This document shows, piece by piece, positions 1 to 20,066 of a DNA stretch of 64,000 nucleotides. Source of the DNA: Pseudomonas paralcaligenes. Its GTDB lineage: Bacteria; Pseudomonadota; Gammaproteobacteria; Pseudomonadales; Pseudomonadaceae. A model generated the notes under the pieces. The model had not been told where the DNA came from. It made no database searches and saw only the letters and a list, made by a program, of their open reading frames with translations. The translations under genes were made by a program, and so were the position numbers. Numbering within the stretch: position 1 is the first letter of the stretch; each line of letters opens with the position of its first letter. Location: the NCBI RefSeq assembly GCF_019655855.1, contig NZ_BPFX01000014.1:248001-312000 (forward strand), given 5' to 3'.

Positions 1-82
1 TAATCAATAAAAATGCCTCTGAATTGATACGTGCACACCCCAAACTATCTGTACTCAACACCAAAATAGGGCATTTACTAAC

Positions 83-292
83 ATGGACCTACGAATTATT
101 CGCATGCGAGAGCTCGAGGCTCTGATTTCTCTAAAACGTTCAACCATCTATAAAAAACTTAATACCGACCCCTCATTTCCAAAACCAATCCCGCTGAGTG
201 ACAGCGCATCACCTGGAGCCCCAGTCGGATTCCTATTGAGCGAGGTGCTAGCGTGGATTGAGGGTCGGATTGCGAAGCGGGCGGAGGACTGA
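83..292 (+). CDS. AlpA/MerR-type short DNA-binding regulator
   Basis: This 69-residue protein has the layout of AlpA-family (prophage CP4-57 type) regulators. A short winged helix-turn-helix begins around the RIIRMRELEAL segment, followed by the SKRSTIYKKL helix and FPKPIPL, the usual 'wing' of this family. Such proteins control excision or replication genes of satellite phages and integrative islands. It sits 2 bp upstream of the primase-like gene in the same direction, so it probably heads the replication operon. No clear Shine-Dalgarno sequence precedes the ATG. The family call rests on motif recall; the role is inferred from position. Confidence 0.75.
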   Translation: MDLRIIRMRELEALISLKRSTIYKKLNTDPSFPKPIPLSDSASPGAPVGFLLSEVLAWIEGRIAKRAED

Positions 293-294
293 GC

Positions 295-1161
295 ATGGAT
301 GTTAACGCAACAGTAGATATTCACGTCGCAATGGAACGTGTATTCGGCCAACTGAACTGGCAACCGATTGCTGATGGCAAAATCCATCGATTCCACATAG
401 CCGAGGACCGCCTTGGTACCCAGAATGGCTGGTACATAATTTTTCCCGGCGAAAACTTCGGAAAATTTGGTAGCTGGAGAACGGGCAGAACCTACAACTG
501 GAGTAGCAGTAACCTCAGCAGCAATCTGGGCAACCTGCAATTTCGTGAGCGCAGAGAAAAACTCTCTCATAATCTACTGGCCAAGCAGCACAGTACACAT
601 ACTGCTGCCGCCAAGAGGGCGCATCATCTATGGCAAAACTCCACACGCCCCGATCCGCATCACCCCTATTTATCGGCTAAGGGATGCAACCCGCATAATT
701 TGCGCCAAATCGGGAATACACTACTGGTACCGATTTTCCACGGAGGACAACTAGTTAACCTGCAACGCATTAGCCCATCTGGCGAGAAGCGTTTTCTACC
801 CGGCGGACGAATAAAGCAATGCTACTCACTAATAGGCACACCCTCCCCCTTAGTTGAGCTATATATCTCCGAGGGCTGGGCAACCGGTGCGACCATCCAT
901 GAGGAAACGGGAGCAGTCGTTGCCTGTGCGATGAACTCAGGTAACCTACTAAGGGTTGGCCAACATCTACAAAGTCTTTATCCAGACGCCACTCTGATAA
1001 TTGCTGGTGATGATGACCGTAAAACCGCAGGCAATCCTGGTCGCGAAGCGGCAATAAAAGCAGCTGCTGCACTCGACTGTGGTTATGTATTTCCACTGTG
1101 GCCAATCGATGCGCCCAGCAATTTGTCTGACTTCAACGATCTGCGCCAATGGTTGAGATAA
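295..1161 (+). CDS. Toprim-domain primase-like protein of a mobile element
   Basis: The 288-residue protein resembles the Toprim half of phage P4-type or island primases. The C-terminal half carries a Toprim-like core: the EGWATGATI segment with its acidic residue (about 190-200), then AGDDDRKTAGNPG (about 235-250), and SDFNDL near the end. The N-terminal 100 residues (GKFGSW, NWSS) look like the domain that normally precedes Toprim in these proteins. No zinc-finger cysteines are evident. It is followed by the DUF3987 gene with a stop-start overlap (TAATG). Likely role: priming replication of the element. Family level is reasonably sure; activity is inferred. Confidence 0.75.
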   Translation: MDVNATVDIHVAMERVFGQLNWQPIADGKIHRFHIAEDRLGTQNGWYIIFPGENFGKFGSWRTGRTYNWSSSNLSSNLGNLQFRERREKLSHNLLAKQHSTHTAAAKRAHHLWQNSTRPDPHHPYLSAKGCNPHNLRQIGNTLLVPIFHGGQLVNLQRISPSGEKRFLPGGRIKQCYSLIGTPSPLVELYISEGWATGATIHEETGAVVACAMNSGNLLRVGQHLQSLYPDATLIIAGDDDRKTAGNPGREAAIKAAAALDCGYVFPLWPIDAPSNLSDFNDLRQWLR

Positions 1162-2642
1162 TGAAAATGAGCACCCCAATCATAAGCAGGCCAAAATATG
1201 TAGAACCAATCCCGTTGCTGATTGAAAAAGAGGAGGATAAACCTTACCCGGTTGATGCTTTGGGCGAATTGCTAGGCGGCGCAGTCGCCGCAATTGCGTC
1301 AGCTGTACAAGTACCAGATGCACTGGCCGCCCAGTCAATATTGACTGCCGCCGCCATGGCGTCCCAGCCGCATGCAAACGTTTTACGCGCCGGCCAAAGG
1401 ATTCCATTATCGCTATTTGGCCTAACAGTAGCTGAATCAGGTGATCGCAAAAGTTCTGCAGACCGTCTGGCTCTTCATGCCCACCGTGAGCATCAGCAGA
1501 TACTAAAACGGAGGCAAAAAGTCGCAGAAAAGGAATTCCGCAACTTACGGGATGCTTACCAAAAAGCGCATTCAATAGTACTCGACAGAACCAAACATGA
1601 AAAACCTGAGGTAGTAGCGACTGAACTAACAAAACTCAATGAGCCAACCGAACCAAAGCTGCCCATAATATTGGTCGAGGAACCAACGATTGAGGGGCTG
1701 CAAAAAAGCCTTCTTCGAGGACACTCATCGCAGGGTTTTTTCAGCGATGAGGGCGGGCTTTTTTTTGGAGGTCACGCAACTAAATCTGAGAACATTCTCA
1801 AAAGTTTTGCGGGCTTATCAAAACTTTGGGATGGAGCCCCTATCACGCGCACTCGTGCAGCAGATGGGGAGAGTGCTACACGAAGCGGCTGTCGCCTTAG
1901 TGCCCACCTCATGATACAGCCAATTGTAGCGCAGGATATCTTAAATAATCCCATCCTACTCGGGCAAGGCCTTCTGGCCAGGTTCCTAATTTCTTGGCCG
2001 CAATCACTAGCAGGAACACGCCTATACCAAGATATTGATGCCACAAGTGATCATCGTCTGATCAATTTCTGGAAGCGCATGAGTTCATTGCTAGAAACTC
2101 CGGCAAAACATGACGAAAACGATGAGCTATCGGCACCTGACCTGAAACTAGAAATTCCCGCCCAGTCAGCCTGGATTAGATATCACGATGAAATAGAGAA
2201 AACTCTTGGCAGAGGGGGGGAAATGCAGGAAATTAAATCAACAGCAGCTAAATCCGCTGAGAACGCCCTCAGAATTGCTGGCGTAATAGCGGTTACAGAA
2301 GGTTTAAGCATTATTACCAAAGAAATAATGGAGCGAGCTGCCATACTATCCCGCTGGTATCTCAATGAGGCTCACCGTCTAGCCTATCCAACGAAAATAG
2401 AAATGCGATTATTGAATGCTCAACAACTGCTCGACTGGCTGACAGCCAAGTGCTGGGTATCATTTGACGCTCGGCGCCTGCAGCGCGAGGGGCCGATGTT
2501 GGTCAGGAAGAGCTCCAAGCAACGCGATCAGCTTCTTGCGATATTAGTTGAGCATTGCTTTCTTTCGACGACAGATGGAAAAGAATACCATCTAGCCAAA
2601 TCTATGAGACCCCAAACATTTAGTACAATTCAATCGAGATAA
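1161..2642 (+). CDS. DUF3987 (YfjI-like) helicase/replication protein
   Basis: The protein has 493 residues from the ATG at 1161, which overlaps the upstream stop as TAATG; an ATG at 1149 in the same frame is a possible alternative. It has the family's YPVDALGELLGGAVAAIA start, a degenerate P-loop in AESGDRKSSADRL (about residue 93), and a long middle region with HLMIQPIVAQ typical of DUF3987. These proteins pair with Toprim proteins in P4-like satellites and islands and are thought to act in element replication. Iteron-like repeats lie just downstream. The low-GC codon usage contrasts with the core genes to the right. Confidence 0.8.
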   Translation: MKMSTPIISRPKYVEPIPLLIEKEEDKPYPVDALGELLGGAVAAIASAVQVPDALAAQSILTAAAMASQPHANVLRAGQRIPLSLFGLTVAESGDRKSSADRLALHAHREHQQILKRRQKVAEKEFRNLRDAYQKAHSIVLDRTKHEKPEVVATELTKLNEPTEPKLPIILVEEPTIEGLQKSLLRGHSSQGFFSDEGGLFFGGHATKSENILKSFAGLSKLWDGAPITRTRAADGESATRSGCRLSAHLMIQPIVAQDILNNPILLGQGLLARFLISWPQSLAGTRLYQDIDATSDHRLINFWKRMSSLLETPAKHDENDELSAPDLKLEIPAQSAWIRYHDEIEKTLGRGGEMQEIKSTAAKSAENALRIAGVIAVTEGLSIITKEIMERAAILSRWYLNEAHRLAYPTKIEMRLLNAQQLLDWLTAKCWVSFDARRLQREGPMLVRKSSKQRDQLLAILVEHCFLSTTDGKEYHLAKSMRPQTFSTIQSR

Positions 2643-3038
2643 TTCCAAAATAACGCGATAAGCCAGCGATAGCATGTTAAATAATTAGCGCTCATTAGCG
2701 TCGCATGCTGTCGCATGGCTGTCGCAGCTTGAGACCGTACAATTGAACGTACTGTCGCGAGTGTCGCAAATGTCGCATGCCCCTCATCGGTTATCCCGCA
2801 GATTTGATCTGAAACCGACGTCTCCACCTAGTTGCATAGAAACATCGACAGGCTGCTTGTTGCCGCTCTTAGCCCGTCAAATCAGGCAGGAGACGGCCAG
2901 AGGCAGTCACTCAAAACCGCAGGCCTCAAGCGGAGTTCAGAATCGTTTCAGACTCAGGTCTGGAAAGTATGTGGACTGAGGAGTATTAGGCCCGCTGAAC
3001 TGGAATCGAATTGAGTAATTTCCAGCAGGCATAGGGCG
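2643..3038. other. Non-coding stretch with a possible element origin
   Basis: Nearly 400 bp between the replication operon and the convergent Sel1 gene. The only clear structure is the set of GTCGCA/G repeats at 2700-2777. Open frames at 2743-2979 and 2832-3014 show no recognisable motif or ribosome binding site and are not called. Confidence 0.5.
2699..2777. repeat. Six iteron-like GTCGCA/G direct repeats
   Basis: GTCGC followed by A or G occurs at 2700-2705, 2710-2715, 2721-2726, 2754-2759, 2763-2768 and 2772-2777, all in the same orientation. They form two groups of three with a 9-11 bp pitch, close to one helical turn, split by a 27 bp spacer. Five of the six are preceded by T or C then T. 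The placement directly after a primase/helicase-like operon suggests an origin or replication-protein binding site; this is inference. Confidence 0.6.
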
Positions 3039-4589
3039 TTATGCGAGGCTCTGCCTCATACAGCAATTTTTGTATTTAGCGCCCTTGCCACAGGGGCAAG
3101 GATCGTTCCTGCCGATCTTGTGGCCAGTGTAAGCCGGTGGCTCCTGTGCAGGCGCCCCTCCTAAGGAGAACCGGAAATGAGGGAATTCACGGGACATGGC
3201 AGCTGCCAGTTTGTCTTGGAGAACATGATTGATCCTGTTGATCCCCGGTTCTAAACGACTGTACTGAGGGTTGGCACGGATTTCTTCCCTGCATTGGAAA
3301 ATGAAATTGAGCGCTGAGTGCAACTCCTGATAGTCCTCAGCGTGCGTTGCCACCAGATTGGCATACCCATACAGGGCCTGAACCCGATGGTTCGGGGAGT
3401 TGAAACACTGTTTATAAAGCTGTTGTGCATCGGTGAAGCTGCGATCCGTAAATTTATATTTCTCAATCAGCCCCGCCAACGCCATCATGGCTTCAGGATG
3501 GCGTTGCTCTGCTGCCTGGGTGAGCCAGTTGAGGGCTGTGGAGCGATCACCGACAAATGCGCGCCCCTTTAGATGCAGCGCATACAAGTGATATTGAGCA
3601 TGTGGGAATCCAGACTCTGCAGCTTTCAGTGAGCACTCGAAGGCCTTCTGGATATTCTTCGGCCCTCCAAGTCCCTGCTCATGCATTCTGCCCAACTGGG
3701 CTAGAGCACGCGGGTGCGATTGCTCAGCGGCTTCCTGATAGAGCTCTCTTGCACGCTCATAGTCGCGCTCAAGACGCTCAGTGCCGGTGAAGAAAAAGTC
3801 GCCCATCAATGCTTGGGCATCAGAATGTCCGTCGAGGCATGCTAACCAGACCTGGTGTTCACCGCGCAGTCGATCGTCGCGATGATTGCTGGTCTCGTCA
3901 GAGTTGTCCTTGAGTCGATACAGGTATGCGCCATATTCATACCTAGCGCTGGAATGATTGCTCTCAGCGGCAGATTTGAACCAGTGCATGGCCTGATCGA
4001 TGGCCTTGCGTGACGGCATATCGGACATAGCCCCATAGCCGTCATCATTGCGAATATAGCAATCGCCAGAATTCTCTCGGTCCGCCTTCTCTTTAAAATA
4101 GACACCTAGGGTATATCGAGACTCTGCATCTTCTTCGAATATGGCTCTGTAGCTGAGATCTCGCTGGATGTGCAGGGTGGGCTCGATTACCTCATACTCA
4201 GGCGTTGATGATCTGCCGGTTTTCAGCCAGTTGAGATGCTCCAAGAGCTCACGAGCGAGGCACAGCCCCTTAGCCGCCATCGAAGGGAAGTCGAGGGTGC
4301 CCGGCGCATACTCTTCCGGGTGGGCAGCTTTGTTCCCACTGTCGCGCAAGGTGTCCAAGGCTGACAGTATCTTCCTGGATGAACCCTCCGCGCTGTGCAC
4401 CTTTTCGATCTTGCTGGCGATATTGGACTCAAACCGTGCCGACGGCTCTTTCTCATCGCAGAAGACTGCTGCAAAGCTGCGCAAGTGGGTTAGGGCGTAC
4501 CCTGGGGTAATGAAGGCTAGGTCTTTAGCCTGTTCGTAATGCCCAGCCAGATCTGGGCTGACGCTCAGTGCAAACTCGATGTCGTTCAT
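3039..4589 (-). CDS. DUF4145 - Sel1-repeat - SEC-C protein
   Basis: This 516-residue protein joins three modules. Residues about 20-115 match a DUF4145-like helical domain (LTHLRSFAAVFCDE and the LRDSGNKAAHP segment). Residues about 155-440 are Sel1/TPR-like repeats (for example ALAQLGRMHEQGLGG and AQYHLYALHLKG). The C-terminal 24 residues form a SEC-C zinc motif, GRNDPCPCGKGAKYKNCC. DUF4145 is often fused to nucleases or signalling domains in mobile regions, and Sel1 arrays mediate protein contacts. It follows the NTPase gene on the same strand after a 372 bp gap, so it may be a partner or separate cargo. Function unknown. Confidence 0.8.
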   Translation of the reverse strand: MNDIEFALSVSPDLAGHYEQAKDLAFITPGYALTHLRSFAAVFCDEKEPSARFESNIASKIEKVHSAEGSSRKILSALDTLRDSGNKAAHPEEYAPGTLDFPSMAAKGLCLARELLEHLNWLKTGRSSTPEYEVIEPTLHIQRDLSYRAIFEEDAESRYTLGVYFKEKADRENSGDCYIRNDDGYGAMSDMPSRKAIDQAMHWFKSAAESNHSSARYEYGAYLYRLKDNSDETSNHRDDRLRGEHQVWLACLDGHSDAQALMGDFFFTGTERLERDYERARELYQEAAEQSHPRALAQLGRMHEQGLGGPKNIQKAFECSLKAAESGFPHAQYHLYALHLKGRAFVGDRSTALNWLTQAAEQRHPEAMMALAGLIEKYKFTDRSFTDAQQLYKQCFNSPNHRVQALYGYANLVATHAEDYQELHSALNFIFQCREEIRANPQYSRLEPGINRINHVLQDKLAAAMSREFPHFRFSLGGAPAQEPPAYTGHKIGRNDPCPCGKGAKYKNCCMRQSLA

Positions 4590-4961
4590 AGGCGGTCAAA
4601 AGTCGTGAGTGTTGCGAGAGTGGAATAGACGTTTGGCGACAAGATACCGGGACTCAACTGATCGGTCACAGGCTTTGGACAGGGGTTGATACTGGCGCTG
4701 GTTAGGGCATCATGCGGCGGTAGTGATTACGGGCCTGGATAATTGCACAGACTTGACCTCCCATTTGCACTCGAGCTGAGGTGTCTTTAGCGGATAATCT
4801 GACCAGCATGCTTCATGGCCCTGGCTGGCAGGGAACGGTCAGACGCGGCCGGTGAACAGAAAGACGGCGACGTCTCCCCCGATTTGAGTAGCTAGGCTTG
4901 GTCTTTGGTGGAAATTGATTGGTCTGCCCAGCGCTTACTCGAAATAGTTCACGCTAAAGGG
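4590..4961. other. Intergenic gap between two island cargo genes
   Basis: About 370 bp without a supportable gene. I see no transfer RNA, repeat array or strong terminator here. It presumably holds the promoter of the DUF4145-Sel1 gene (minus strand) and the 3' end of the NTPase transcript. Confidence 0.4.
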
Positions 4962-7900
4962 TTAGAACCCTATGACCTTCCAGTCCCTCGCAGACCATTG
5001 AGAGAATGAGCGATGTAGGTGTTTGTGTGCTTGGTAAATTTTCTGCCTGACACCGTCTCTGATAGGGTGATGACCATCCATTTTCTTGAGCCAGTTCCGC
5101 TCGCCCCAATTGCACCACACGAACACCTGACGAGTTTCGCTCAGGTAGCGTTGAAGAAGTTCCGCCCGAATGTACAGAAGGCTGTGCCGGTTCCCCTTCC
5201 ATGAATCGCCAGCCTCACGATAGAGCGTTCCAGGCCTGCCCATAGAATCGTAGAAGTCGATTTCCCGATTCTTGCTCGCTAACCCAAGACGCTGAATCAA
5301 ACTGGGAGCAGGTAGATCGAAACCTGAGAATTGGTTGTGTGGCGAATGGTAGGACTCCCAGCCGAAGTGAATAAACGGAAGCTCCAGTCGGATGCCTGGA
5401 ATGCGGCGAAATTTCGGCTTCGGAGCAAGTAGATCGTCGAAAGAAATTTGGGATGTCTTCCCTTCATTGGTGACCAGATCAACCGTGACGGGGGGGCGTT
5501 TGACCCTCTTATTTGGCCCCTCCTGCACATGTTCCACGAATGCTTCTACGACTTGGCGCCGATAAAGCCCATTCCTCTGGTATAGCTGTCGGGAATAGGT
5601 CTGGCTACGGCCTGCCTCCCCTGCATAGAGATAGTTCTCAGTACCAGCTTCGGGGATCTTGTAGTTGCCTGGATAGTCCACAGCAAGAAACTTCGTTTTA
5701 AGACTCTCTACATCCTTACGGGCCACAAACATACCGCGTAGGAAAGCAAAAATGTCCCGATCGAGGGTTTCATCGACCCCACGGACATGTCCTTGCAAAA
5801 GAACCCATGGTCCTTGGTGTCCATTGATTGACGGGACCACGAGCAAGGGATGCCAGTTAGGAGTGAAACCGCCTTGTACCCAAGCATTGGCGCTTCTTGT
5901 CACACGCCCGAATAAATCTGGAATAGGCGGTATCCATTCGGGTGGCCGCTTGGGAAAGCTTGGGTCAACGCCACAGTCAGAAGTTCTCTCTTCTAGACGC
6001 CAATCAGGCAGGGTTCTGTTGGCCTGTCGCTCGCCCCACATTTCAAAAAAGGCAATCCACGAGTACTTCTTCCCATACCGATCCACCTTTACTTCATCGC
6101 GTGCTTGCCAGGATGTACTCCCAATATCCCTATCAGCAGTTTCGAATCGATGTGCCCGATACCCAAGGTCATAGATGCGTCGCTCGATTTTCGCCCGAAT
6201 GCGGACGTACTCAGGATGTTTGTTATCGTAGTTAGCACGATGGCAGACCAAACGCCCCATCGTGTAGTTGCCGAAGTCCATTTGAATAGCGTTGTCGATC
6301 GCCTCTGTGACCGCAGGATCGGGCGTGCCATTGCTCGCAAATGTAGACGGCGTATTCGAGAACGGCGCGGCAAGATCCGCAGTGGCATTCTCAGGGAGAA
6401 CCACGCATTCAGCGCGTATTGCTAGCCCAATAATTCCGACGGCGTAACCACGCGTAAGCGTGTGGTGGGTGGCATGGTGGGCATGTGGTGCGAACATGCT
6501 CTCGTACAGAGTTTTCGCAAGCCCCCCTAACTGTGGCCGAAAGGTTACCGCCAATTCCGAGTCCACCAAGGACATCGTTGTCCCGTAAGCCGCAGCCAGC
6601 ATTCGCTCTGGTACGTAGGGGTCGTTGAACTCAAGGCTCGTTACGACATGCGCAAAAAGTACCTCCGGAAACCGCTCCCCAATCATAACAAGCGCTTTCG
6701 TTGCCAGGTCCCGGTCACGTCGAACCACGGTTGTAAGAACGAGAGAGAGCAATACGACCAGCTCACCAGCCGACTCAGGCGTCATGTGGGCAACATTTAG
6801 CTTTTGGGCCCAGATCAGTAACCGGTGAATAGTTGGCGATGCATAGCGGCGCCTCAGATACTCGGACCATTGGAGATCGCGATCTGGCATTGAGAAGCCT
6901 GCCAAATAATCGTAAAGACGCCGAGAATGGTACGGGTGCTTTGGCTTGGTTGAGACGGCTGCTAATGCATCCACCACCTGCTCCCATGTCCGTGAGTTGG
7001 CAGTCAGATAGTGGTTGATAACCGTGCGTGTACCCTCCGTGAAAGCCGCGGGATCACGCCAAAAAATGCCTTCGATAAAGGGTTCGAAGTAGGCACTCGA
7101 ACTCTGAGCCTGTTTGGGCAAGACAAAGTACAACTCTCGTTGCCCATCAGGCAGTCGCTTGCCTGCTCGCGCCGGAAACTCAGTGATCAGTGCCTGCGCC
7201 CAGCCTGGCTCTGCGTACTCGCGCTGTAATCGGTTTCGCATTTTAAAGATGCGCGCAAGCGGTGCTTTGCCCGTCAAGCTCTGCTTGATGGTGTCGATCG
7301 AAGTGAAATCGAGATGAGTTTTGAGTAGGTGTCTCGCTATCAGGTGGTCGCTGAACCGCTGATAAGGAAGCCGCAAAACAATCCGGGACTTGTACCCAGA
7401 GCTTGCCGAATACCAGATAGCGTCCTCTTCAATGAGCCCATTTGTGCGTAACGCTTCAAGGAGCTGGCGGCGTTGGGCTGGTTTCAACAGCGGGTAGTGA
7501 GCCGCAATAATGCGGTCAGCCTCGGAGGGCCGAACGTAGCCTCGCATGTTCGCTGCCATGCATGGTGCAAAGCCCGCGAGTCGACTGTCTTTGATTTGAT
7601 CGCTGCCTTTCAACAACAGCCAACAGCCCTTAGTCGCAAGACCAAACTCTTGCTCAATAGGCTCCCCTACACGCTTCACAAACGACTCAAGGACAAAGGT
7701 CATTCCTTTTTGACCTGAAGCGATGCCCGAAAACCCTTTTGCTAATTTCTTACCTGTCAGGCTTTGAAGTGACTGGCAGATCAGCTTCAGCGTTAACGGC
7801 CTTGAGAACTCCCTATCCAGCAGCGGAACCTCGGGTAACGGCAAGTCGTAGTACTGAAAGAAAGCAGCTTGCGCATCGAACTCTTGATCGTCGAATCCGT

Positions 7901-8861
7901 AGTGAACGACCTTGTGAAATCGCTCTAGATCATTCTGCTGGATTGCAATTGGCTCGAACGGTGTGCGGCATGTGACGATCAGTCCGATGTTCGAGCGATC
8001 ATCTGCGAGTCGGAGGAGCATAGTGACGGCATCTCGCCATTCTCGACGACAGCCTTCGTTTACACCATCAAGGATGAAGATTGTTCTGCCAGCCGACTCA
8101 TTGGCCAGTTCGGCAAGGCAGTCGAATACCTCTCCTGCTGCGGTACCTGCCTGAACCCGCGAGCAGATTTCTTCAACTACATTGCCTTCGAAGTTCTTGG
8201 CTAGGACAAGGACTGTGGCTTGATCACGCCCAATGCGCTCCTGAGTGACATCACAGAGGAGATGCGTTTTACCGGTTCCCCATGCTCCGCTTATCAAAAG
8301 CTTTGGATCAAACAAGACTTTGAATTCAGGGCTCTGGATGTACTCCCTCTCATTTGTCACGACAGTTAGGCAGCGGCTAATCGCGCTCATATGGTTACGA
8401 ATCGTGCTTTGTGCGGAGGAATATCCGGTGTCTCCATCAGAGGGAGATAGCCTGATCTCCTCGTCACGCCAGTGATTCATATCCTCAATCAGCCCGGCCT
8501 CTATAACCGAAATCTGCTCCATCCATTCAGTTCCGGCCGTTGCATCTCGTTGGCGCAATCGATTCATCATGGGCGTCAAAAAGGCACGCGCATCAGCCAA
8601 TTTCGCTTCAAGTGCATTGGGCTGCTGGCTGGAGCGTTTGGCTTGCGTCCATGCTTCGGAGAGCGAGTCTAGGGTCGACTCAAACCTCGCAAGTGCGCCT
8701 GCTCCGCAAGCAACGTTCTCGATAGCAGAGAACAGCGATTCGACCCTAAGATTCGGTGCATCAGGATCAACCCCTGGGGTGTATCTATGCCCCGCTTGCT
8801 GAATTTGATCTCTGCAGAGGCTTTTCACTGCAGTCAGGAGAGTTTCACGTGCAGAAGGCAT
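4962..8861 (-). CDS. Large NACHT/STAND-type P-loop NTPase, candidate anti-phage protein
   Basis: A 1299-residue protein. Residues 1-180 form a mainly helical N-terminal region with no recognisable effector enzyme. The NTPase core has Walker A GAWGTGKT (192-199), Walker B IFILDGVNE (261-269; D265 and E269) and a sensor-1-like IVTCR ending at R299. A winged-helix-like part follows, ending in LPYQRFSDHLIARHLL (about 498-513). The remaining 780 residues contain helical, repeat-like stretches and a distinctive C-terminal part with KKYSWIAFFEM at 931-941. This layout, in a tRNA-associated island, fits bacterial STAND/NACHT defence proteins related to Avs or bNACHT. The exact family is not identified. 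The ATG is preceded by AAGG at 7 bp. Confidence 0.8.
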   Translation of the reverse strand: MPSARETLLTAVKSLCRDQIQQAGHRYTPGVDPDAPNLRVESLFSAIENVACGAGALARFESTLDSLSEAWTQAKRSSQQPNALEAKLADARAFLTPMMNRLRQRDATAGTEWMEQISVIEAGLIEDMNHWRDEEIRLSPSDGDTGYSSAQSTIRNHMSAISRCLTVVTNEREYIQSPEFKVLFDPKLLISGAWGTGKTHLLCDVTQERIGRDQATVLVLAKNFEGNVVEEICSRVQAGTAAGEVFDCLAELANESAGRTIFILDGVNEGCRREWRDAVTMLLRLADDRSNIGLIVTCRTPFEPIAIQQNDLERFHKVVHYGFDDQEFDAQAAFFQYYDLPLPEVPLLDREFSRPLTLKLICQSLQSLTGKKLAKGFSGIASGQKGMTFVLESFVKRVGEPIEQEFGLATKGCWLLLKGSDQIKDSRLAGFAPCMAANMRGYVRPSEADRIIAAHYPLLKPAQRRQLLEALRTNGLIEEDAIWYSASSGYKSRIVLRLPYQRFSDHLIARHLLKTHLDFTSIDTIKQSLTGKAPLARIFKMRNRLQREYAEPGWAQALITEFPARAGKRLPDGQRELYFVLPKQAQSSSAYFEPFIEGIFWRDPAAFTEGTRTVINHYLTANSRTWEQVVDALAAVSTKPKHPYHSRRLYDYLAGFSMPDRDLQWSEYLRRRYASPTIHRLLIWAQKLNVAHMTPESAGELVVLLSLVLTTVVRRDRDLATKALVMIGERFPEVLFAHVVTSLEFNDPYVPERMLAAAYGTTMSLVDSELAVTFRPQLGGLAKTLYESMFAPHAHHATHHTLTRGYAVGIIGLAIRAECVVLPENATADLAAPFSNTPSTFASNGTPDPAVTEAIDNAIQMDFGNYTMGRLVCHRANYDNKHPEYVRIRAKIERRIYDLGYRAHRFETADRDIGSTSWQARDEVKVDRYGKKYSWIAFFEMWGERQANRTLPDWRLEERTSDCGVDPSFPKRPPEWIPPIPDLFGRVTRSANAWVQGGFTPNWHPLLVVPSINGHQGPWVLLQGHVRGVDETLDRDIFAFLRGMFVARKDVESLKTKFLAVDYPGNYKIPEAGTENYLYAGEAGRSQTYSRQLYQRNGLYRRQVVEAFVEHVQEGPNKRVKRPPVTVDLVTNEGKTSQISFDDLLAPKPKFRRIPGIRLELPFIHFGWESYHSPHNQFSGFDLPAPSLIQRLGLASKNREIDFYDSMGRPGTLYREAGDSWKGNRHSLLYIRAELLQRYLSETRQVFVWCNWGERNWLKKMDGHHPIRDGVRQKIYQAHKHLHRSFSQWSARDWKVIGF

Positions 8862-8891
8862 AGTCGACCTTGAGTAATACCAAGTCTGAGC

Positions 8892-8920
8892 AACTATTGT
8901 GGATGGGAAAAATAAGTCAA
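8892..8920 (-). promoter_or_regulatory. Candidate promoter of the NTPase gene
   Basis: On the minus strand TTGACT (8915-8920) is followed after 16 bp by AATAGT (8893-8898), which matches four of six -10 positions, about 30 bp upstream of the ATG. Sigma-70-like; a visual match only. Confidence 0.4.
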
Positions 8921-9078
8921 CTCGCTCAAGGAAATCGATTGCCGACAGTCTGAGCGAAGATGCGTACGAGCTGTGGCAGCGCTCTCTGAAGTGCCCCTAA
9001 TTTCGTAGGCACCGCCATGCATTTGCTCGAAGAGCTTATATTGGCTGTTAAAGCTAAAGCAGGCGACAGGCTGCTTTT

Positions 9079-10310
9079 GGCTGTGGACTCAACCGGTCGA
9101 CGCAACAGCGTGGTTAAAGCACTCGGCAGGGGTCGAGTATCCCAGAGTCTTTCTGGGGCGTTAGTTCAACTGCCGAGCGACTACAATCCAGCTCATCCTG
9201 CGAGTAGAGCGAGAGATCCATTCCCTTCGGGAAGTACTGCCGTAGCAGGCCGTTAGTATTAACATTCGTCCCTCGCTGCCAGGGATTTTGCGGATCGCAG
9301 AAATAGACCTGGATATCCGTCGCTAGGGTAAAGCGCTTGTGAGAGGCCATCTCCTTGCCGCGATCCCAGGTCAGTGATCGGTAAAGCTCCTGAGGCAGTC
9401 GCCGGGCATTTTCGATCAGTGCGTTCACCACTGTCTCGGTATCTTTTCCACCCACCTTAACCAGCATCACGTAGCGGCTGTGGCGTTCTGCCAGCGTGGC
9501 AATCTGGCTGTTCTTGCTGCCGCACAACAGATCCCCTTCCCAGTGCCCTGGTACCGCACGATCCTCAACGCAGGCTGGCCGTTCGCTGATGGAAATCGTA
9601 TCGCTGATGCGGCCATGGTTGTCGGTTTTCTGTGTGTGATGGCGCGAGCGGCGCATGGCCCGGCTGCGGCGCAGATGCTCCAGTAATTCCTTCTTCAATA
9701 CGCCACGGGCCTGGATGAAGAGGCTCCGGTAGATGGTCTCGTGTGACACCTGACTGGCCGCGTCCGGGTATGTTCGCTTCAACCATCCAGCGATCTGCTC
9801 GGGCGACCACTGAATCTGAAGCTTCTCCGCAACAAGCTGCGCCAACTTCGGACACTGAGCAAGCTTGCAAAGCTTCGGGCGATGAGCTCTATCCCATGCC
9901 GCTTGTTCAGCTTCATTAGCGCGGTAAGACTGACGACCACCGTTACGGCCAATCTCGCGACCGACGGTGGATGGGGCGCGCTCCAGGCGTAGTGCGATTT
10001 GCCGAATCGACTGGCCAACTGCAAGCGCACGCGAGATCTCCTTGCGCTCAACCAGCGTTAGCGACAACCTGGAGCGTCGTCGCGCGGCTGGGCGGATGCC
10101 ACCTGTCTAGGCAAGAATGCGCTGGATCGAAGAGTGGTTTCGATCGAACAGCTGCGCGATCTTTTGGAGCGAATCACCTGCCTTCCAGCGATCCCACATC
10201 AACGCCTTCTGGCTTTCGGTGTAGTAGATCCGAGGTCTTTGTTTCATCTGCAACACCCTCCTGCTTACGCAGGGTTCAGTGTGTTGCGTTCACAGGTTGA
10301 GTCCACAGCC
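9079..10310 (-). mobile_element. Degenerate IS30-family insertion sequence
   Basis: The element is bounded by 29 bp inverted repeats (9079-9107 and 10282-10310) that match at 26 positions and begin GGCTGTGGACTCAACC at each end. It is about 1232 bp long, as expected for IS30 members of this type, and contains one transposase reading frame that is broken (see the pseudogene). No 2-3 bp target duplication is evident at the flanks (TTT left, GTT right), which suggests an old insertion or rearranged flanks. Confidence 0.85.
9089..10247 (-). pseudogene. IS30 transposase pseudogene
   Basis: The ancestral frame starts at the ATG at 10247 (MKQRPRIYYTESQK). It meets an in-frame TAG at 10107-10109, where relatives have a sense codon after QRILA, and resumes through TGGIRPAARRR. 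The longest intact piece (ATG 10067) holds the helix-turn-helix (QSIRQIALRLERAPSTVGRE) and the DDE domain (GHWEGDLL, SLTWDRGKEM). The catalytic glutamate normally found in GTNENTNGL is valine here (GTNVNTNGL, GTT codon). Near 9183 the frame shifts; the proper C-terminus (VARQLN, RPRKTLGYSTPAE) lies in another frame and has an internal TAA. The protein should be inactive. Confidence 0.9.
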
Positions 10311-10498
10311 GTTAGCTGCCCTCCCCCTGATGGCTCGCACAGCCTGACTCACTTCTAACAGCCCTACCCCACATTTCCGCCGCTGAGCCATTCTCAGCGG
10401 TGGGGCAAAAAGTGGGGTAAAAATCAGATACCTTCAAAAAACAGTAGAAATAAAAAAATCCAGTCACCGCTAAGTGACTGGATTTTCTAGGGTTTTTT
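10311..10498. other. Island end between IS30 and tRNA-Pro
   Basis: This contains an 8 bp stem hairpin (10380-10387 with 10393-10400), repeated TACCCCAC/GTGGGGTA words around it, and the tRNA terminator. Short pyrimidine and GGGGT repeats next to a tRNA 3' end resemble integrase arm or promoter regions of tRNA-targeting islands, but no integrase gene remains here. Inference. Confidence 0.4.
10452..10486 (-). terminator. Rho-independent terminator after tRNA-Pro
   Basis: On the minus strand an 11-13 bp stem (AATCCAGTCAC paired with GTGACTGGATT) with a 6 nt loop is followed by a T run. It lies just past the tRNA 3' end. Confidence 0.85.
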
Positions 10499-10575
10499 TG
10501 GTCGGGACGGAGTGATTCGAACACTCGACCCCTTGCACCCCATGCAAGTGCGCTACCGGGCTGCGCTACGCCCCG
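10499..10575 (-). tRNA. tRNA-Pro (GGG anticodon)
   Basis: A 77 nt cloverleaf read on the minus strand. The acceptor CGGGGCG pairs with CGTCCCG, followed by A and an encoded CCA. The anticodon stem CTTGC/GCAAG encloses the loop ATGGGGT, giving GGG. The T-arm has GTTCGAATC. It follows the ihfA-merR genes, as in other Pseudomonas, and its 3' end faces the accessory region, so it is probably the attachment site of the island. Confidence 0.95.
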
Positions 10576-10657
10576 ACGATGCTGCCGTGTTACCGGAAGC
10601 GGGATGGACTTTACTATAAGCTGCTGAATTGTGGAAGTTTTTTTTGCGACTCGGTGC

Positions 10658-11014
10658 TTATTTGCGAAGCACGTGCAGCACATCTTCCAACTCGGCAATC
10701 ATCTGCCGGATCAGTTGCCTGTACTGGGTGGTGTCGTCCTTGGCTTCGTCGCCGGAGAGGCGCTGGCGCGCTCCGCCGATGGTGAAGCCTTGGTCGTACA
10801 GGAGTGCCCGGATCTGGCGGATCATCAGCACATCCTGGCGCTGATAGTAGCGGCGGTTGCCCCGCCGCTTCACCGGATTGAGCTGGGGAAACTCCTGCTC
10901 CCAGTAACGCAAAACATGAGGCTTGACGGCGCAGAGGTCGCTGACTTCGCCGATGGTGAAGTAGCGTTTGCCAGGGATAGGCGGCAACTCGTCGTTATGA
11001 CTTGGTTCCAGCAT
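10658..11014 (-). CDS. MerR-family transcriptional regulator
   Basis: A 118-residue protein with an N-terminal MerR helix-turn-helix: the [25 protein letters not shown] segment starts about residue 18, and RRGNRRYY forms the wing. A C-terminal helix may form the dimer coiled coil. No metal-binding cysteine pattern is apparent. Its start overlaps the ihfA stop by 20 bp, so it is the last gene of the thrS-to-ihfA operon, a conserved arrangement in Pseudomonas. Target genes are unknown. Confidence 0.9.
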
Positions 11015-11297
11015 ATGCCTCTACTCTGGCCTTCAATTTCTGGCCTGGACGAAAGGTGACGACACGGCGAGCCGTGATCGGGATTTCTTCGCCTGTCTTG
11101 GGATTGCGGCCCGGGCGCTGACGCTTGTCGCGCAGGTCGAAATTGCCGAAACCGGACAATTTGACCTGCTCGTTGTCTTCCAGCGCGTGGCGGATTTCCT
11201 CGAAAAACAGCTCCACCAACTCCTTGGCTTCCCGCTTATTCAGGCCAAGCTCTTCATACAGACGTTCCGCCATTTCAGCTTTCGTCAGAGCCCCCAT
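10995..11297 (-). CDS. ihfA: Integration host factor subunit alpha
   Basis: A 100-residue HU/IHF-fold protein beginning [20 protein letters not shown]. It contains the conserved [10 protein letters not shown] and the DNA-intercalating arm [14 protein letters not shown], with the proline at the arm tip. With IhfB it bends DNA for recombination, replication and promoter control. It follows pheT after only 3 bp and overlaps merR, the conserved pheST-ihfA order of gammaproteobacteria. Confidence 0.98.
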
Positions 11298-11300
11298 ACG

Positions 11301-13679
11301 CTACTTCCTTAACGTGGCGTTGAACCTTTCTTCCAGCGAGGTGATGATGTTTTGCGTGGTTGTATTCACCTCATCGTCGTTAAGAGTGCGCGATGGATGT
11401 TGCCAGGTCAAGCCGACGGCCAGGCTTTTTCTATGTGGATCAATACCTTTACCGTGATACACATCAAACAGCCTGAGGTCCGTCAACCATTCGCCCGCGG
11501 CCTCGCGGATGTTGGCGAGCACGGCTTCGGCCGGTTGTTCGCGGTCCACCAGCAGGGCCAGGTCGCGACGCACTTCAGGGAAGCGTGACAGTTCGCTGAA
11601 CGCCGGCATGCGACCGGCGGCCACTTCCGCCAGTACCAGTTCGAAGAGGAATATCGGCTGGTCCAGGCCGAGGGTCTTGGCCAGCTCCGGGTGCAGGGCT
11701 CCGAGGAAACCGACCAGGCGCCCTTCCCGCTCGATGCGTGCGGTCTGGCCCGGGTGCAGGGCCGGGTGTTCGCCCGGTACGAAGCTGAAGGCATCGGCCC
11801 CGCCGGCATAACCCAGCAACGCCTCGACATCGGCCTTGAGGTCGTAGAAGTCCACGATCTCGCGGCCGTTGGCCCAACCTTCCGGCAAACGGCTGCCGCT
11901 GATCACGCCGGCCAGCATGGCCTCCTGCTTCAGGCCCTCAAGCTGGCCGACGAAGCGCAGGCCGCTCTCGAACAGGCGCACGCGCGACTGTTGGCGATTG
12001 AGGTTGTGCTCCAGCGCCTTGACCAGGCCCGGCCACAGCGAGGAACGCATGGCGGCCATGTCGGCGGAGATCGGGTTGGCCAACTGCAGCGGCGCCACGC
12101 CCGGATTGAACAGCTCGAACAGTTTGGGATCGATGAAACTGTAGGTGATGGCTTCCTGGTAGCCGCGCGCCACCAGCAGGCGGCGCAGGGCCGGTAGCTC
12201 GGCACGGGCTTCGGCCTTGGCCTGCGGAGCCAGACGGGCCTGCGGATAACGCACCGGCAGACGGTTGTAGCCGTACAGGCGGCCCAGCTCTTCGATCAGG
12301 TCCACTTCCAGGCTGATGTCGAAGCGGTGGCTCGGCACGCTGACCTGCCACTGGCCGGCACCCTGAGCGGTCACGCCCAGGCCCAACGCGGTGAGCAGGC
12401 GTTCGATCTCGGCGCCGTCCATGTCCATGCTTAGCATCTGGCTGATGCGCTCGGCGCGCAGGGTGATCGGCGCGACATTCGGCAGATCGGCGGCGCTGGC
12501 CACTTCGATGATCGGACCGGCTTCGCCACCGACGATCTCCAGCAGCAGCGCGGTGGCGCGCTCCATTGCACCGCGTGCCAGCTGCGAGTCCACGCCGCGC
12601 TCGAAGCGGTGCGAGGAGTCGGTGTGCAGGCCATAGGAACGGGCCTTGCCAGCCACCGAGATGGTGTCGAAGAAGGCACTTTCCAGGAACAGGTCACGGG
12701 TCTTGCCACTCACGCCGCTGTGCTCGCCACCCATCACGCCGGCGATGGCCAGGGCGCGGTTATGGTCGGCAATCACCAGGGTGTCGGCGCGCAGACTGAC
12801 TTCCTGGCCATCCAGCAGGACTAGCTTCTCCCCCTCTTCCGCCATGCGCACGCGGATGCCGCCATTGATCTCGGCGAGATCGAAGGCGTGCATCGGCTGG
12901 CCGAGTTCGAGCATCACGTAGTTGGTGATGTCGACTGCGGCGTCGATGCTGCGGATGTCGGAACGGCGCAGGCGCTCGACCATCCACAACGGGGTCGGCT
13001 TGGACAGGTCGACGTTACGGACGACGCGGCCCAGGTAGCGCGGACATGCCTTGGAGGCCAGCACTTCAACCGGGCGCACTTCGTCATGCGCGGCGGCGAC
13101 CGGGGCAACGGATACAGTCGTTACCGGAGCGCCATAAATGGCGCCGACTTCACGGGCCAGACCGGCCAGCGACAGACAGTCGCCACGATTCGGGGTCAGG
13201 CCGATCTCGATGCTGGCATCGTCCAGACCGAGATAGTCGCGCAGGCTCTGGCCGACCGGGGCGTCTGCCGCCAGCTCCATCAGGCCGTTGTTGTCGTCGC
13301 TGACCTGCAGTTCGGAGGCCGAGCAGAGCATGCCCTGAGACTCCACACCGCGCAGCTTGGCCTGCTTAATCTTGAAGTCGCCCGGCAGCTCGGCGCCGAT
13401 CATGGCGAAGGGAATCTTGATGCCGGCGCGAGCATTGGGCGCGCCGCAGACCACCTGGAAGGTGGCGCTGCCGTTGCTGACTTGGCACACGCGCAGCTTG
13501 TCGGCGTCCGGGTGCTGTTCGGCGCTGAGAATCTCGCCCACCACCACGCCGCTGAACTGGCCGGCGACCGGGATCACGGCGTCCACTTCCAGGCCGACCA
13601 TGGACAGGCGGGCCACCAGTTCGTCGCGCGAAACTGCCGGGTTCACCCAGCTGCGCAGCCACTGTTCACTGAATTTCAT
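11301..13679 (-). CDS. pheT: Phenylalanyl-tRNA synthetase beta subunit
   Basis: The 792-residue length is typical. It has an N-terminal EMAP-like tRNA-binding domain (about 40-150, GVVVGEI and CGAPNARAG), B3/B4 editing and B5 domains, a catalytic-like core (ELGRLYGYNRLP at about 460), and a C-terminal FDX-ACB anticodon domain (SRFPEVRRDLALLVD onward). It forms the alpha2-beta2 enzyme with PheS that charges tRNA-Phe. It lies 44 bp downstream of pheS in the operon and starts MKFSEQWLR. Confidence 0.98.
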   Translation of the reverse strand: MKFSEQWLRSWVNPAVSRDELVARLSMVGLEVDAVIPVAGQFSGVVVGEILSAEQHPDADKLRVCQVSNGSATFQVVCGAPNARAGIKIPFAMIGAELPGDFKIKQAKLRGVESQGMLCSASELQVSDDNNGLMELAADAPVGQSLRDYLGLDDASIEIGLTPNRGDCLSLAGLAREVGAIYGAPVTTVSVAPVAAAHDEVRPVEVLASKACPRYLGRVVRNVDLSKPTPLWMVERLRRSDIRSIDAAVDITNYVMLELGQPMHAFDLAEINGGIRVRMAEEGEKLVLLDGQEVSLRADTLVIADHNRALAIAGVMGGEHSGVSGKTRDLFLESAFFDTISVAGKARSYGLHTDSSHRFERGVDSQLARGAMERATALLLEIVGGEAGPIIEVASAADLPNVAPITLRAERISQMLSMDMDGAEIERLLTALGLGVTAQGAGQWQVSVPSHRFDISLEVDLIEELGRLYGYNRLPVRYPQARLAPQAKAEARAELPALRRLLVARGYQEAITYSFIDPKLFELFNPGVAPLQLANPISADMAAMRSSLWPGLVKALEHNLNRQQSRVRLFESGLRFVGQLEGLKQEAMLAGVISGSRLPEGWANGREIVDFYDLKADVEALLGYAGGADAFSFVPGEHPALHPGQTARIEREGRLVGFLGALHPELAKTLGLDQPIFLFELVLAEVAAGRMPAFSELSRFPEVRRDLALLVDREQPAEAVLANIREAAGEWLTDLRLFDVYHGKGIDPHRKSLAVGLTWQHPSRTLNDDEVNTTTQNIITSLEERFNATLRK

Positions 13680-13723
13680 GCTGTCTGTTCTCCATTGAGC
13701 GAATTCGATACGGGTCGTGCGGC

Positions 13724-14792
<1,069 letters not shown>

Positions 14793-14835
14793 CGGTGACG
14801 TTTGCACCGGGCGAGCCCGGTGATTGTCGGGGGAC

Positions 14836-15192
14836 TTAAGCCAGTACGGCCTTAGCTTTCTCGACAATCGCAGCAAACGCCGCTTTTTCGTTCACTGCCA
14901 GATCGGCCAGAACCTTGCGATCGATCTCGATGGTCGCTTTTTTCAGGCCAGCAATCAGGCGGCTGTAAGACAGACCGTTCTGACGAGCACCAGCGTTGAT
15001 ACGAGCGATCCACAGAGCGCGGAACTGACGCTTGCGCTGACGGCGGTCACGGTAGGCGTACTGGCCTGCCTTGATCACAGCCTGCTTGGCAACGCGGAAC
15101 ACGCGGGAGCGCGCGCCGTAGTAGCCTTTGGCGAGTTTCAGAATTTTCTTGTGACGGGCACGAGCGATGACGCCACGCTTAACACGAGCCAT
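14836..15192 (-). CDS. rplT: 50S ribosomal protein L20
   Basis: The 118-residue length is standard. The basic N-terminus [16 protein letters not shown] and [12 protein letters not shown] are hallmark L20 segments, followed by the globular C-terminal part. It assembles early on 23S rRNA and in enterobacteria represses the rpmI-rplT messenger. It lies 30 bp after rpmI. Confidence 0.98.
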
Positions 15193-15222
15193 GAGTAATT
15201 ACCTCTAAAGTATCTTGACCGA

Positions 15223-15417
15223 TTAACGAACGCGCAGCATGCGCTCGACTTTTGCCTTGTCCGACGGATGCATCAGCTCGCTACCGCGCAGTTGACGCTT
15301 ACGCTTGGTGGACATTTTGGTCAGGATGTGGCTCTTGAAAGCGTGCTTGTGCTTGTAGCCGCCAGCGGTTTTCAGGAAACGCTTGGCTGCACCGCTCTTG
15401 GTTTTCATCTTTGGCAT
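15223..15417 (-). CDS. rpmI: 50S ribosomal protein L35
   Basis: A 64-residue, strongly basic protein starting [17 protein letters not shown], the L35 signature. It lies in the invariant infC-rpmI-rplT order, 60 bp downstream of infC. Confidence 0.98.
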
Positions 15418-15477
15418 GTTTGGTACTCCGCATTCATTAACAACTGATAACCATCAGGCCTGCCAGTGCCCGGGAGG

Positions 15478-16023
15478 TTATTTACGCTTCTTGGGAGCGA
15501 TGACCATCATCAGCTGGCGTCCTTCCAACTTGGGATGCTGTTCCACGGTGCCGATTTCGGCGAGGTCGGCTTCGACCCGCTTCAACAGCTCCATGCCCAG
15601 CTCCTGGTGGGCCATCTCACGACCACGGAATCGCAAGGATACCTTGGCCTTGTCCCCTTCATTAAGGAAACGTACCAGGTTGCGTAGTTTTACCTGGTAA
15701 TCCCCTTCTTCCGTCCCTGGACGAAACTTGATTTCTTTGATCTGCTGCTGGTGCTGGTTCTTCTTCGCGATAGCAGCTTGCTTCTTCTTCTCGAACAGGT
15801 GCTTGCCGTAGTCCATGATCCGGCAAACTGGCGGGACGGCGTCAGCTGAGATCTCCACCAGATCCAGCTTGGCTTCTTCAGCCACACGCAGTGCCTCATC
15901 AATCGAAACAATGCCAATTTGCTCGCCATCCGCGCCAATCAGGCGGACTTCACGCGCAGTGATGTTCTCGTTGATCGGTGCCTTCGGGACCGCCCGCTTG
16001 TCCTGTCTCATTTCACGCTTAAT
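15478..16023 (-). CDS. infC: Translation initiation factor IF-3 with AUU start
   Basis: A 181-residue IF-3. The N-domain ([14 protein letters not shown]), linker helix and C-domain ([32 protein letters not shown]) are all present. I place the start at ATT 16021-16023, 4 codons upstream of the first ATG, because GGAG sits 8 bp before it and IF-3 genes elsewhere use AUU for autoregulation (known from E. coli). An ATC two codons further upstream is a possible alternative but has almost no spacing to the same GGAG. The gene begins 5 bp after the thrS stop. Confidence 0.93.
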
Positions 16024-16028
16024 AGTGA

Positions 16029-17951
16029 TTACTCCGAATCTTGGCGACCACGCCGGGAAACCGCTTGCTTGAGCTGTTCGGCGAACTGTTCCAGAGGCAT
16101 GGAGCCCAGGTCGACACCTTCGCGGGTACGCACAGCAACGGATCGTGTCTCAACTTCCCTGTCGCCAATAACCAGCAGATAGGGAACCTTGAGCAAAGTA
16201 TGCTCGCGGATTTTAAAGCCGATTTTTTCGTTTCTCAAGTCCGACTTGGCACGGAATCCGCTTTGGTTGAGGGTTTTCTCCACTTCCAGAGCGAAATCGG
16301 CCTGCTTGTCGGTGATGTTCATCACCACTGCCTGCACCGGAGCCAGCCAGGACGGGAAGGCGCCCGCATAGTGCTCGATCAGCATGCCGATGAAACGCTC
16401 GAAGGAACCGAGAATCGCGCGATGCAGCATCACCGGGCGCTTGCGGTTGTTGTCCTCGGCGATATAGCTGGCATCCAGACGTTCCGGCAGGTTCGGATCG
16501 TACTGCAGAGTACCGCACTGCCAGTTACGCCCCAGGCAGTCCTTGAGGGTGAACTCGATCTTCGGGCCGTAGAAGGCACCTTCGCCAGGCTGGTATTCCC
16601 ACTCCAGACCGGATTCGTTCAGCGCATCGGCCAGGGCGCCCTCGGCGCGATCCCACAGCTCGTCGGAACCCACGCGTTTGGCCGGACGAGTGGACAGCTT
16701 CATGGAGATATCGGAGAAGCCGAAGTCCGAGTACACCTGCAGAGTCAGCTTGATGAAGTCGGCCGCTTCCTTCTTCACCTGATCTTCGGTGCAGAAGATG
16801 TGCGCGTCGTCCTGGGTGAAGCCACGCACGCGCATGATGCCGTGCAGCGCGCCGGACGGCTCGTTGCGGTGGCAGGCGCCGAACTCGGCCATGCGCAGCG
16901 GCAGGTCGCGGTAGGACTTCAGGCCCTGGTTGAAGATCTGCACGTGGCACGGGCAGTTCATCGGCTTCACTGCGTAATCGCGGTTTTCCGAGTTGGTGGT
17001 GAACATGTTCTCGGCGTAGTTCGACCAGTGCCCGGAGCGCTCCCACAGGATGCGGTCGACCACCTGCGGCGTGCGCACCTCGACGTAGCCGTTCTCACGC
17101 TGCACCTGGCGCATGTACTGCTCCAGCACCTGGTAGACAGTCCAGCCGCCCGGGTGCCAGAACACCATGCCCGGCGCCTCTTCCTGCAGGTGGAACAGGT
17201 CCAGCTGCTTGCCGATGCGACGATGGTCGCGCTTCTCGGCTTCCTCGATGCGCTGGATGTAGGCCGCCAGCTGCTTCTTGTCCGCCCAGGCGGTGCCGTA
17301 GATACGCTGCAGTTGCTCGTTCTTCGAGTCGCCGCGCCAGTAAGCGCCGGAAATCTTGGTCAGCTTGAAGGATTTGAGGAAGCGAGTATTGGGCACGTGC
17401 GGACCGCGGCACATGTCCACGTATTCCTCGTGGTAGTACAGCCCCATCGCCTGCTCATTCGGCATGTCGTCGATCAGGCGCAGCTTGTATTCCTCGCCAC
17501 GGGACCTGAATACCTCGATGACCTCGGCGCGCGGCGTCATCTTCTTGATGACGTCGTAGTCCTTGTCGATCAGCTCGGCCATGCGCTTCTCGATGGCTGC
17601 CAGATCTTCCGGAGTGAAGGGGCGGTCGATGGCGATGTCGTAGTAGAAGCCTTCCTCGATCACCGGACCGATCACCATCCTGGCGTTCGGATAGAGCTGC
17701 TTGACCGCGTGACCGACCAGGTGGGCACAGGAGTGGCGGATGATTTCCAGCCCCTCTTCGTCCTTCGGCGTGATGATCTGCAGAGTCGCGTCATTCTCAA
17801 TCAGGTCGCAGGCGTCCACCTGCCGGCCGTCGACCTTGCCGGCCAGGGTGGCCTTGGCCAGGCCCGCGCCGATGGACTGGGCCACCTCGAGCACGGAAAC
17901 GGGATGATCGAACGAACGCTGACTGCCGTCGGGAAGAGTAATAATGGGCAT
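16029..17951 (-). CDS. thrS: Threonyl-tRNA synthetase
   Basis: A 640-residue class II synthetase: TGS domain (about 1-62), editing domain with [10 protein letters not shown] and the later C-rich part, catalytic core with [10 protein letters not shown] (zinc ligand Cys), and a C-terminal anticodon-binding domain. The start is the ATG at 17951, with GAGGAG 5 bp upstream; an in-frame upstream ATG at 17984 lacks such a site. It is the first gene of the thrS-infC-rpmI-rplT-pheST-ihfA-merR operon. Confidence 0.98.
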
Positions 17952-18140
17952 GGCGCCTCCTCTCCTAGTGGTGACCCCTACCAAAGGTCACGTGGGTTGG
18001 GATGAGCCAGGAAGCGATCCGGCGGCATGCCTGCCAGACGATGGCAGGGGCCTTGCGGCAACCGGAACAGACCGCAGTCACTGGAGGTAAACGGAATCGC
18101 GGATGCTTCCAGAAAGCCTGGGCCCTGGCAAGCAGCCAAT

Positions 18141-18170
18141 AAAAAAGGGGTCGTATGAACGACCCCTTTC
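18141..18170 (-). terminator. Terminator after tRNA-Val
   Basis: An 11 bp stem (AAAGGGGTCGT and its complement) with a 4 nt loop is followed by T residues on the minus strand, 6 bp past the encoded CCA. Confidence 0.85.
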
Positions 18171-18175
18171 GGATT

Positions 18176-18252
18176 TGGTAGGCACAATTGGACTCGAACC
18201 AACGACCCCCACCATGTCAAGGTGGTGCTCTAACCAACTGAGCTATGTGCCT
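18176..18252 (-). tRNA. tRNA-Val (GAC anticodon)
   Basis: A 77 nt cloverleaf on the minus strand. The acceptor AGGCACA pairs with TGTGCCT, followed by A and an encoded CCA. The anticodon stem CCACC/GGTGG encloses TTGACAT, giving GAC. The T-loop GTTCGAGTCC is present. Confidence 0.95.
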
Positions 18253-18437
18253 GCAATGGAGGCGCATTTTAGGGAGATTCGCCGGGGTGTCAATACCTTT
18301 TTTCGCTAAGCCACTGAAAAAGTGGATTTTTTGCTGCACAGCGCTGCGTTGAGAATTTTGCACAGAGGCTAGCCGGCTCATTTCCAGTCGGGTAGCATCG
18401 GCTCATTCCGTAAAAAATAAGAAACGCAGGTTAAAAT

Positions 18438-19721: not shown

Positions 19722-19735
19722 ACGATCCGAAAGGG

Positions 19736-19759
19736 AAACGGCGCCATCAGGCGCCGTTT
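19736..19759. terminator. Intrinsic terminator, probably bidirectional
   Basis: A perfect 10 bp stem, AAACGGCGCC with GGCGCCGTTT, between the convergent oxidase and DUF2388 genes. Confidence 0.8.
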
Positions 19760-19763
19760 CTGC

Positions 19764-20066
19764 TTACAGGACGAGTATGGCCTGCGCCAGTTCGAGGTCA
19801 CTCGCCCGCAGCTCCGGCAGGCGGTCGCGGACATGCCGCAGGGCCGCCTCCAGGCGGGCACCACGGATATCGCCCTGGCTGGCGATGAAACTGGCCGCAT
19901 CGTCCCTGGCCTCGCGCACCACCTTGTCGTCGAAGGCCGACGAGGTGACATCGCTGATGCCATCCACCGTGTTGACCATCGCGTCGGTGGTCACGACGAA
20001 ACTGCTCGCGTTCGCCGACAGGCTGACCCCGAGGGCCAGCGCCGCCAGCCAATATTTGCCATGCAT
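19764..20066 (-). CDS. DUF2388 small secreted protein
   Basis: A 100-residue protein with a clear Sec signal peptide (MHGKYWLAALALGVSLSANA, cleavage about residue 20). The mature part has SFVVTTDAMVNTVDGISDVTSSAFDDK, typical of DUF2388, a Pseudomonas-restricted periplasmic family of unknown function. It is divergent from dusA and convergent with the upstream oxidase. Confidence 0.85.
   Translation of the reverse strand: MHGKYWLAALALGVSLSANASSFVVTTDAMVNTVDGISDVTSSAFDDKVVREARDDAASFIASQGDIRGARLEAALRHVRDRLPELRASDLELAQAILVL

Follow-up and report, generated by a model that had tools for sequence, protein, structure and literature searches.

An Avs2-like STAND protein without an N-terminal effector domain in Pseudomonas paralcaligenes

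The gene and its domains

The window considered here is a stretch of 64,000 nt from Pseudomonas paralcaligenes (assembly GCF_019655855.1, contig NZ_BPFX01000014.1, positions 248,001-312,000 of the forward strand), and its minus strand carries, at 4962-8861, a single unbroken open reading frame (ORF) of 1299 codons encoding an Avs2-like STAND protein that lacks an N-terminal effector domain (Table 1). The plus-strand reading of the same interval is riddled with stops. The protein has 539 matches at E<=0.001 and, among the matches listed, at least 120 homologues show 67-93% identity at query coverages of 90-100%; the ORF is therefore not due to chance. The gene is complete, since the best homologues begin in the same methionine region and end at the matching place. 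The original prediction for this locus had placed the ORF and its motifs as in Table 1, and these positions hold.

Table 1. Features of the Avs2-like gene and of the adjoining island edge, in window coordinates
Feature	Position	Strand	Basis
Avs2-like STAND protein, 1299 residues, without N-terminal effector domain	4962..8861	-	ORF, profiles, homologues
Helical N-terminal region, residues 1-181, equivalent to the post-effector linker of Avs2 profiles	8319..8861	-	profiles, model
Conserved AGxRYTPGxxPxAPNLxIxxL, residues 17-44	8730..8813	-	cross-clade comparison
STAND NTPase core, residues about 185-420	7602..8309	-	alignment, structural model comparison
Walker A, residues 192-199	8265..8288	-	sequence, alignment
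Walker B region, residues 261-269	8055..8081	-	sequence, alignment
R299, sensor-like arginine, invariant	7965..7967	-	alignment
KKYSWIAFFEM, residues 931-941, common to Avs2	6039..6071	-	alignment, Avs2 comparison
Sensor half, residues 601-1299, superposing on the sensor of terminase-bound Avs3	4965..7061	-	structural model
tRNA-Pro(ggg) at island edge	10499..10575	-	tRNA call, genus comparison

The central part of the protein is a STAND-type core with Walker A, Walker B and sensor arginine all present, as had been predicted, and the best structural matches to the model include Avs4 and NLR cores. In an alignment of 24 homologues W194, G195, T196, G197, K198, T199, N268, E269, R299 and the stretch K932-A937 are unchanged throughout, while the Walker B acid at position 265 is Asp in the window protein and Glu in some homologues, and K931 differs in one. 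The KKYSWIAFFEM motif, which the original prediction had called conserved-looking, is not peculiar to this protein, since Avs2 carries the same stretch as GKKYQWIAYYE in the solved chain 9o4e and as GKKYQWIAFYD in the relative L081.

Six Avs2 models of PADLOC match the protein, the best of them (2.5e-155) aligning residues 13-871 with positions 177-999 of 1504, which places it in Avs2 in the wide sense of a PADLOC profile match. The solved Avs2 chain 9o4e_A matches over residues 169-814 (2.1e-54) and a profile search adds the KKYxWIA stretch. The equivalog for Avs2, NCBIfam NF041813, yields 441 bits, far below its curated cut-off of 1000, and the protein is for that reason named Avs2-like rather than Avs2; the N-terminal effector that stands ahead of the linker in Avs2 proper is likewise absent. 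L081, which exceeds this cut-off, is 23% identical to the window protein. Pfam gave no match over a curated cut-off for the whole protein, for residues 1-170 or for the C-terminal part. The earlier assignment to defence is supported at the level of profiles; the label 'undescribed', in the sense of unplaced, is not, because the PADLOC Avs2 profiles match.

In the structural model, residues 602-1299 superpose on residues 1166-2081 of Avs3 (8dgc), up to the final residues of the sensor, at a sequence identity of 12%, and the C-terminal half is accordingly predicted to have an AVAST-type sensor fold.

The N-terminal region shows what the protein lacks. In Avs2 profiles, the segment with which residues 13-170 align comes after the N-terminal domain, and the alignment with L081 begins at residue 184 of the latter; the predicted structure holds no additional domain. 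Mean identity among 24 core rows is 0.74 to 0.81 over residues 17-170 and only 0.55 over residues 1-16. Between both clades only residues 17-44 are kept, at the place where nuclease-bearing L081 reads GKRYTPEI. No membrane segment was found in the N-terminal region (top 19-residue hydropathy mean 1.57). A PDB sequence search with residues 1-184 produced a single match, to an unrelated enzyme at E 1.2, which we regard as chance. The original prediction had noted that no effector enzyme was visible, and none appears here or in a large set of relatives; its suggestion that a killing activity might reside in a new fold at either end finds no support, since residues 13-170 correspond to the post-effector linker and residues 601-1299 to the Avs3 sensor.

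Relatives and origin of the stripped form

A second search, seeded from a distant set of seven sequences, gave 678 proteins that may overlap with the 539, and among the matches listed at least 120 are 1058-1358 residues long. Walker A occurs in 238 of the best 240 of both searches' 539 and 678 hits, which are top-scoring and hence biased towards the stripped form, and only four of these have 230 residues or more ahead of it; these four long starts look like run-on start calls. Hosts named among the matches listed include Pseudomonas, Dyella, Lysobacter, Polynucleobacter and Sideroxyarcus, and 33 loci from genome contigs belong, by record titles, to Alpha-, Beta- and Gammaproteobacteria, Desulfo- groups, Acidobacteria, Actinomycetota, Bacteroidia and Chloroflexi, one of them (L035) being of the long form. 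One PADLOC Avs2 model, PDLC02165, begins merely 31-44 positions ahead of the linker and, judged from this start, short forms are already absorbed into Avs2. The literature searched, with its poor coverage of subscription journals, yielded no mention of an effector-less Avs2 lineage.

Within a genus sample of 398 genomes, 21 match, and the stripped form occurs in the source genome only; the other 20 carry frames of 1347-1677 residues (19 genomes) or 609 residues (one). These matches fall in one gene per row, except for the broken ones. Among the loci compared, L010, L013, L021, L022 and L023 hold split or shortened copies.

For some of the longer relatives the N-terminus was identified, namely the L083 type and L081 (by PADLOC) and L091 (DUF4062). 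The L083 type comprises relatives of 1341-1352 residues from the Pseudomonas genus and from viral contigs. Its N-terminal domain lacks a Pfam hit, is hit by the beginnings of Avs2 and Avs4 models of PADLOC and carries QPGVEFHL..GWQCKWY, from which, by eye, we take it to be PD-(D/E)xK/Mrr-like. Two such nuclease-bearing relatives lie on IMG/VR viral contigs (L120, 1986-6140; L121, 1-4059).

Trees were built from 43 hand-picked rows, and in the sensor-half tree the L083 type groups with the window protein (100/100). Two of the trees are compatible with the stripped form having arisen once: that of the middle part (69/99, with 72% of its bootstrap trees) and that of the sensor half (83/76, with 82%). 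The NTPase-only tree requires two changes, with one change in 0% of bootstrap trees, and the tree tool flags long branches, the L083 group included. For these two reasons loss of the effector from a nuclease-bearing ancestor is considered only the likely origin of the stripped form.

Genomic context

Shared genus sequence restarts, in the better-matching genus genomes, at about 10387-10450, just past the 3' end of the tRNA-Pro gene, and an island edge probably lies here. The proposal of a tRNA-Pro island is borne out as to the tRNA and an island-like edge; against a textbook island, no repeat of the tRNA end reaching 15 bases turned up in the 37 kb to the left, and no integrase was recognised in the ORF list there. 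An Rfam search of window positions 1-20000 brought only tRNA-Val to the gathering score. Between the gene and tRNA-Pro lies an IS30-like transposase (9114-10260), whose upstream part has an in-frame stop and which looks degenerate.

Downstream on the same strand, a gene at 3039-4589 encodes a protein of 516 residues that carries Sel1 repeats and a SEC-C motif and matches DUF4145 below threshold; the gene has no counterpart beside relatives in an ORF comparison of 36 loci. Toprim and DUF3987 genes lie within the same island at 295-2642, and on viral contig L036 a DUF3987 gene (4289-5641) immediately precedes the relative; both may be carried by satellite-like elements. Further off, 16.7-36.5 kb to the left of window base 1 (L094, L093), there is a defence cluster with DpdE, DrmMI, DruE and PDC-M61-like proteins, 6 of 7 tested matching PADLOC models.

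Neighbours of relatives were sampled as 21 hand-chosen proteins from 18 loci, without a background rate, and five gave strong defence matches: type I restriction (L006, L027), a type I methylase (L018), type IIG (L028) and ZorD (L013). A neighbour in L007 gave an additional partial, helicase-like match, and a phage integrase adjoins the relative in L018.

Among 20 core-clade loci, including window positions 8862-8906, a T[AG]NA[AG]T hexamer lies at most 16 bases from the start in 11 (shuffles: mean 0.59, maximum 4), and a Shine-Dalgarno-like core precedes the gene in one (shuffle mean 2.3). Core-clade genes may therefore be read from leaderless messages, although the hexamer pattern was chosen post hoc, the loci are related, and in two of them (L006 and L011) the start is not at a start codon. 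The window's own upstream sequence at 8862-8906 has neither element.

Proposed function and alternatives

We are highly confident of the architecture as read from sequence and model: an intact STAND switch, an Avs3-type sensor fold, a linker-equivalent helical N-terminus and no further domain. A role in defence is probable. Our overall reading, which we hold tentatively, is that of an Avs2-like phage sensor without an effector of its own, working with a partner in trans, and delivery of the output in trans is, taken by itself, similarly provisional. By likeness of fold, the sensor half would recognise some conserved protein of the phage, the large terminase being the likeliest; this contact would trigger ATP-driven ring assembly, and the assembled N-terminal helices would recruit or activate a partner, encoded away from the gene, that halts infection. 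Because a constrained switch and an Avs3-fold sensor are combined with a missing effector, handing the signal on through exposed linker helices is the simplest account. Avs1, which has a separate nuclease (PMC12799240), offers a precedent, and so do the clade 14 bNACHT proteins, whose protection involves no discernible effector (PMC12169576).

Several searches weigh against such a partner. Among ORFs of 60 residues or more in 36 loci (many on short contigs), only the gene itself clusters in more than three loci. The 1-kb flanks of 27 loci and the window hold no recurring DNA or six-frame match that could serve as a partner, matches being confined to L003/L014/L020 and L006/L017 (DNA or six-frame) and L005/L021 (by protein). 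In STAND proteins of the effector-associated adaptor domain (EAD) type, the N-terminal domain recurs on effector proteins of the genome; here the source genome encodes no second protein with the N-terminal region (E<=10), and a small-protein search of limited sensitivity gave 35 matches, 34 of them fragments of the family itself.

The failure to find either an effector or a recurring partner in the loci and flanks also suits a defence that needs neither, in which ATP-driven assembly would grip the phage terminase and block DNA packaging without a killing step, and the sensor half does fit the terminase-binding half of Avs3 along its full length. We consider this unlikely: terminase binding is itself suggested by modelled fold likeness, the strictly kept NTPase motifs call for a switch rather than a mere trap, and relatives couple the same sensor half to a nuclease-like domain. 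If it were true, a widespread Avs lineage would defend without an effector, recognition itself being the blow.

That residues 1-181 are a novel effector freed by assembly appears more doubtful. They are everything that stands ahead of the NTPase, and much of their length is well conserved, but the region aligns with the linker that nuclease-bearing Avs2 retains, only residues 17-44 are well kept between clades, and there is neither a membrane segment nor good conservation at the extreme N-terminus. A role outside defence would accommodate the 16 of 21 tested neighbours that lack a strong match to a known defence gene; it is very unlikely in view of the Avs2 profile matches, the Avs3-like sensor fold, the patchy occurrence in the genus and the mobile settings (the tRNA edge, the integrase beside L018 and the DUF3987 gene in L036). 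Least likely is that the protein serves as decoy or regulator, competing with a nuclease-bearing Avs of its own cell or dampening it. Nuclease-bearing relatives do have the sensor half in common, but the source genome holds no second Avs2-like gene and single genes in the matching genus genomes indicate that pairs are not the rule.

A large lineage thus keeps switch and sensor and lacks the effector, and there would be either a hidden class of partners or recognition that by itself stops the phage.

Comparison with known systems

Avs proteins are presented as sensor, switch and N-terminal effector on one chain (PMC12931631, PMC12724215). The window protein shares with Avs2 (AVAST type 2) the NTPase, the helical part after it, the KKYxWIA stretch and, in PADLOC profiles, the linker, and differs in having no N-terminal effector domain. 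It resembles Avs3, solved bound to the PhiV-1 terminase, in the fold of the sensor half, whereas the Avs3 chain extends to 2004 residues and the window protein has no effector. With portal-bound Avs4 (8dgf) it shares the fold of linker and NTPase (model residues 2-606 against 176-551) at 9% identity, and the Avs4 residues before 176 have no counterpart in it. Outside the stripped set the nearest sensor half is that of the L083 type, 39% identical over residues 640-1084, but this type bears the N-terminal domain described above. Clade 14 bNACHT proteins (bNACHT02 and bNACHT12) are protective NTPases in which, likewise, no effector is discernible (PMC12169576); they differ in being of the NACHT kind and in ending with a short SNaCT region in place of an Avs sensor.
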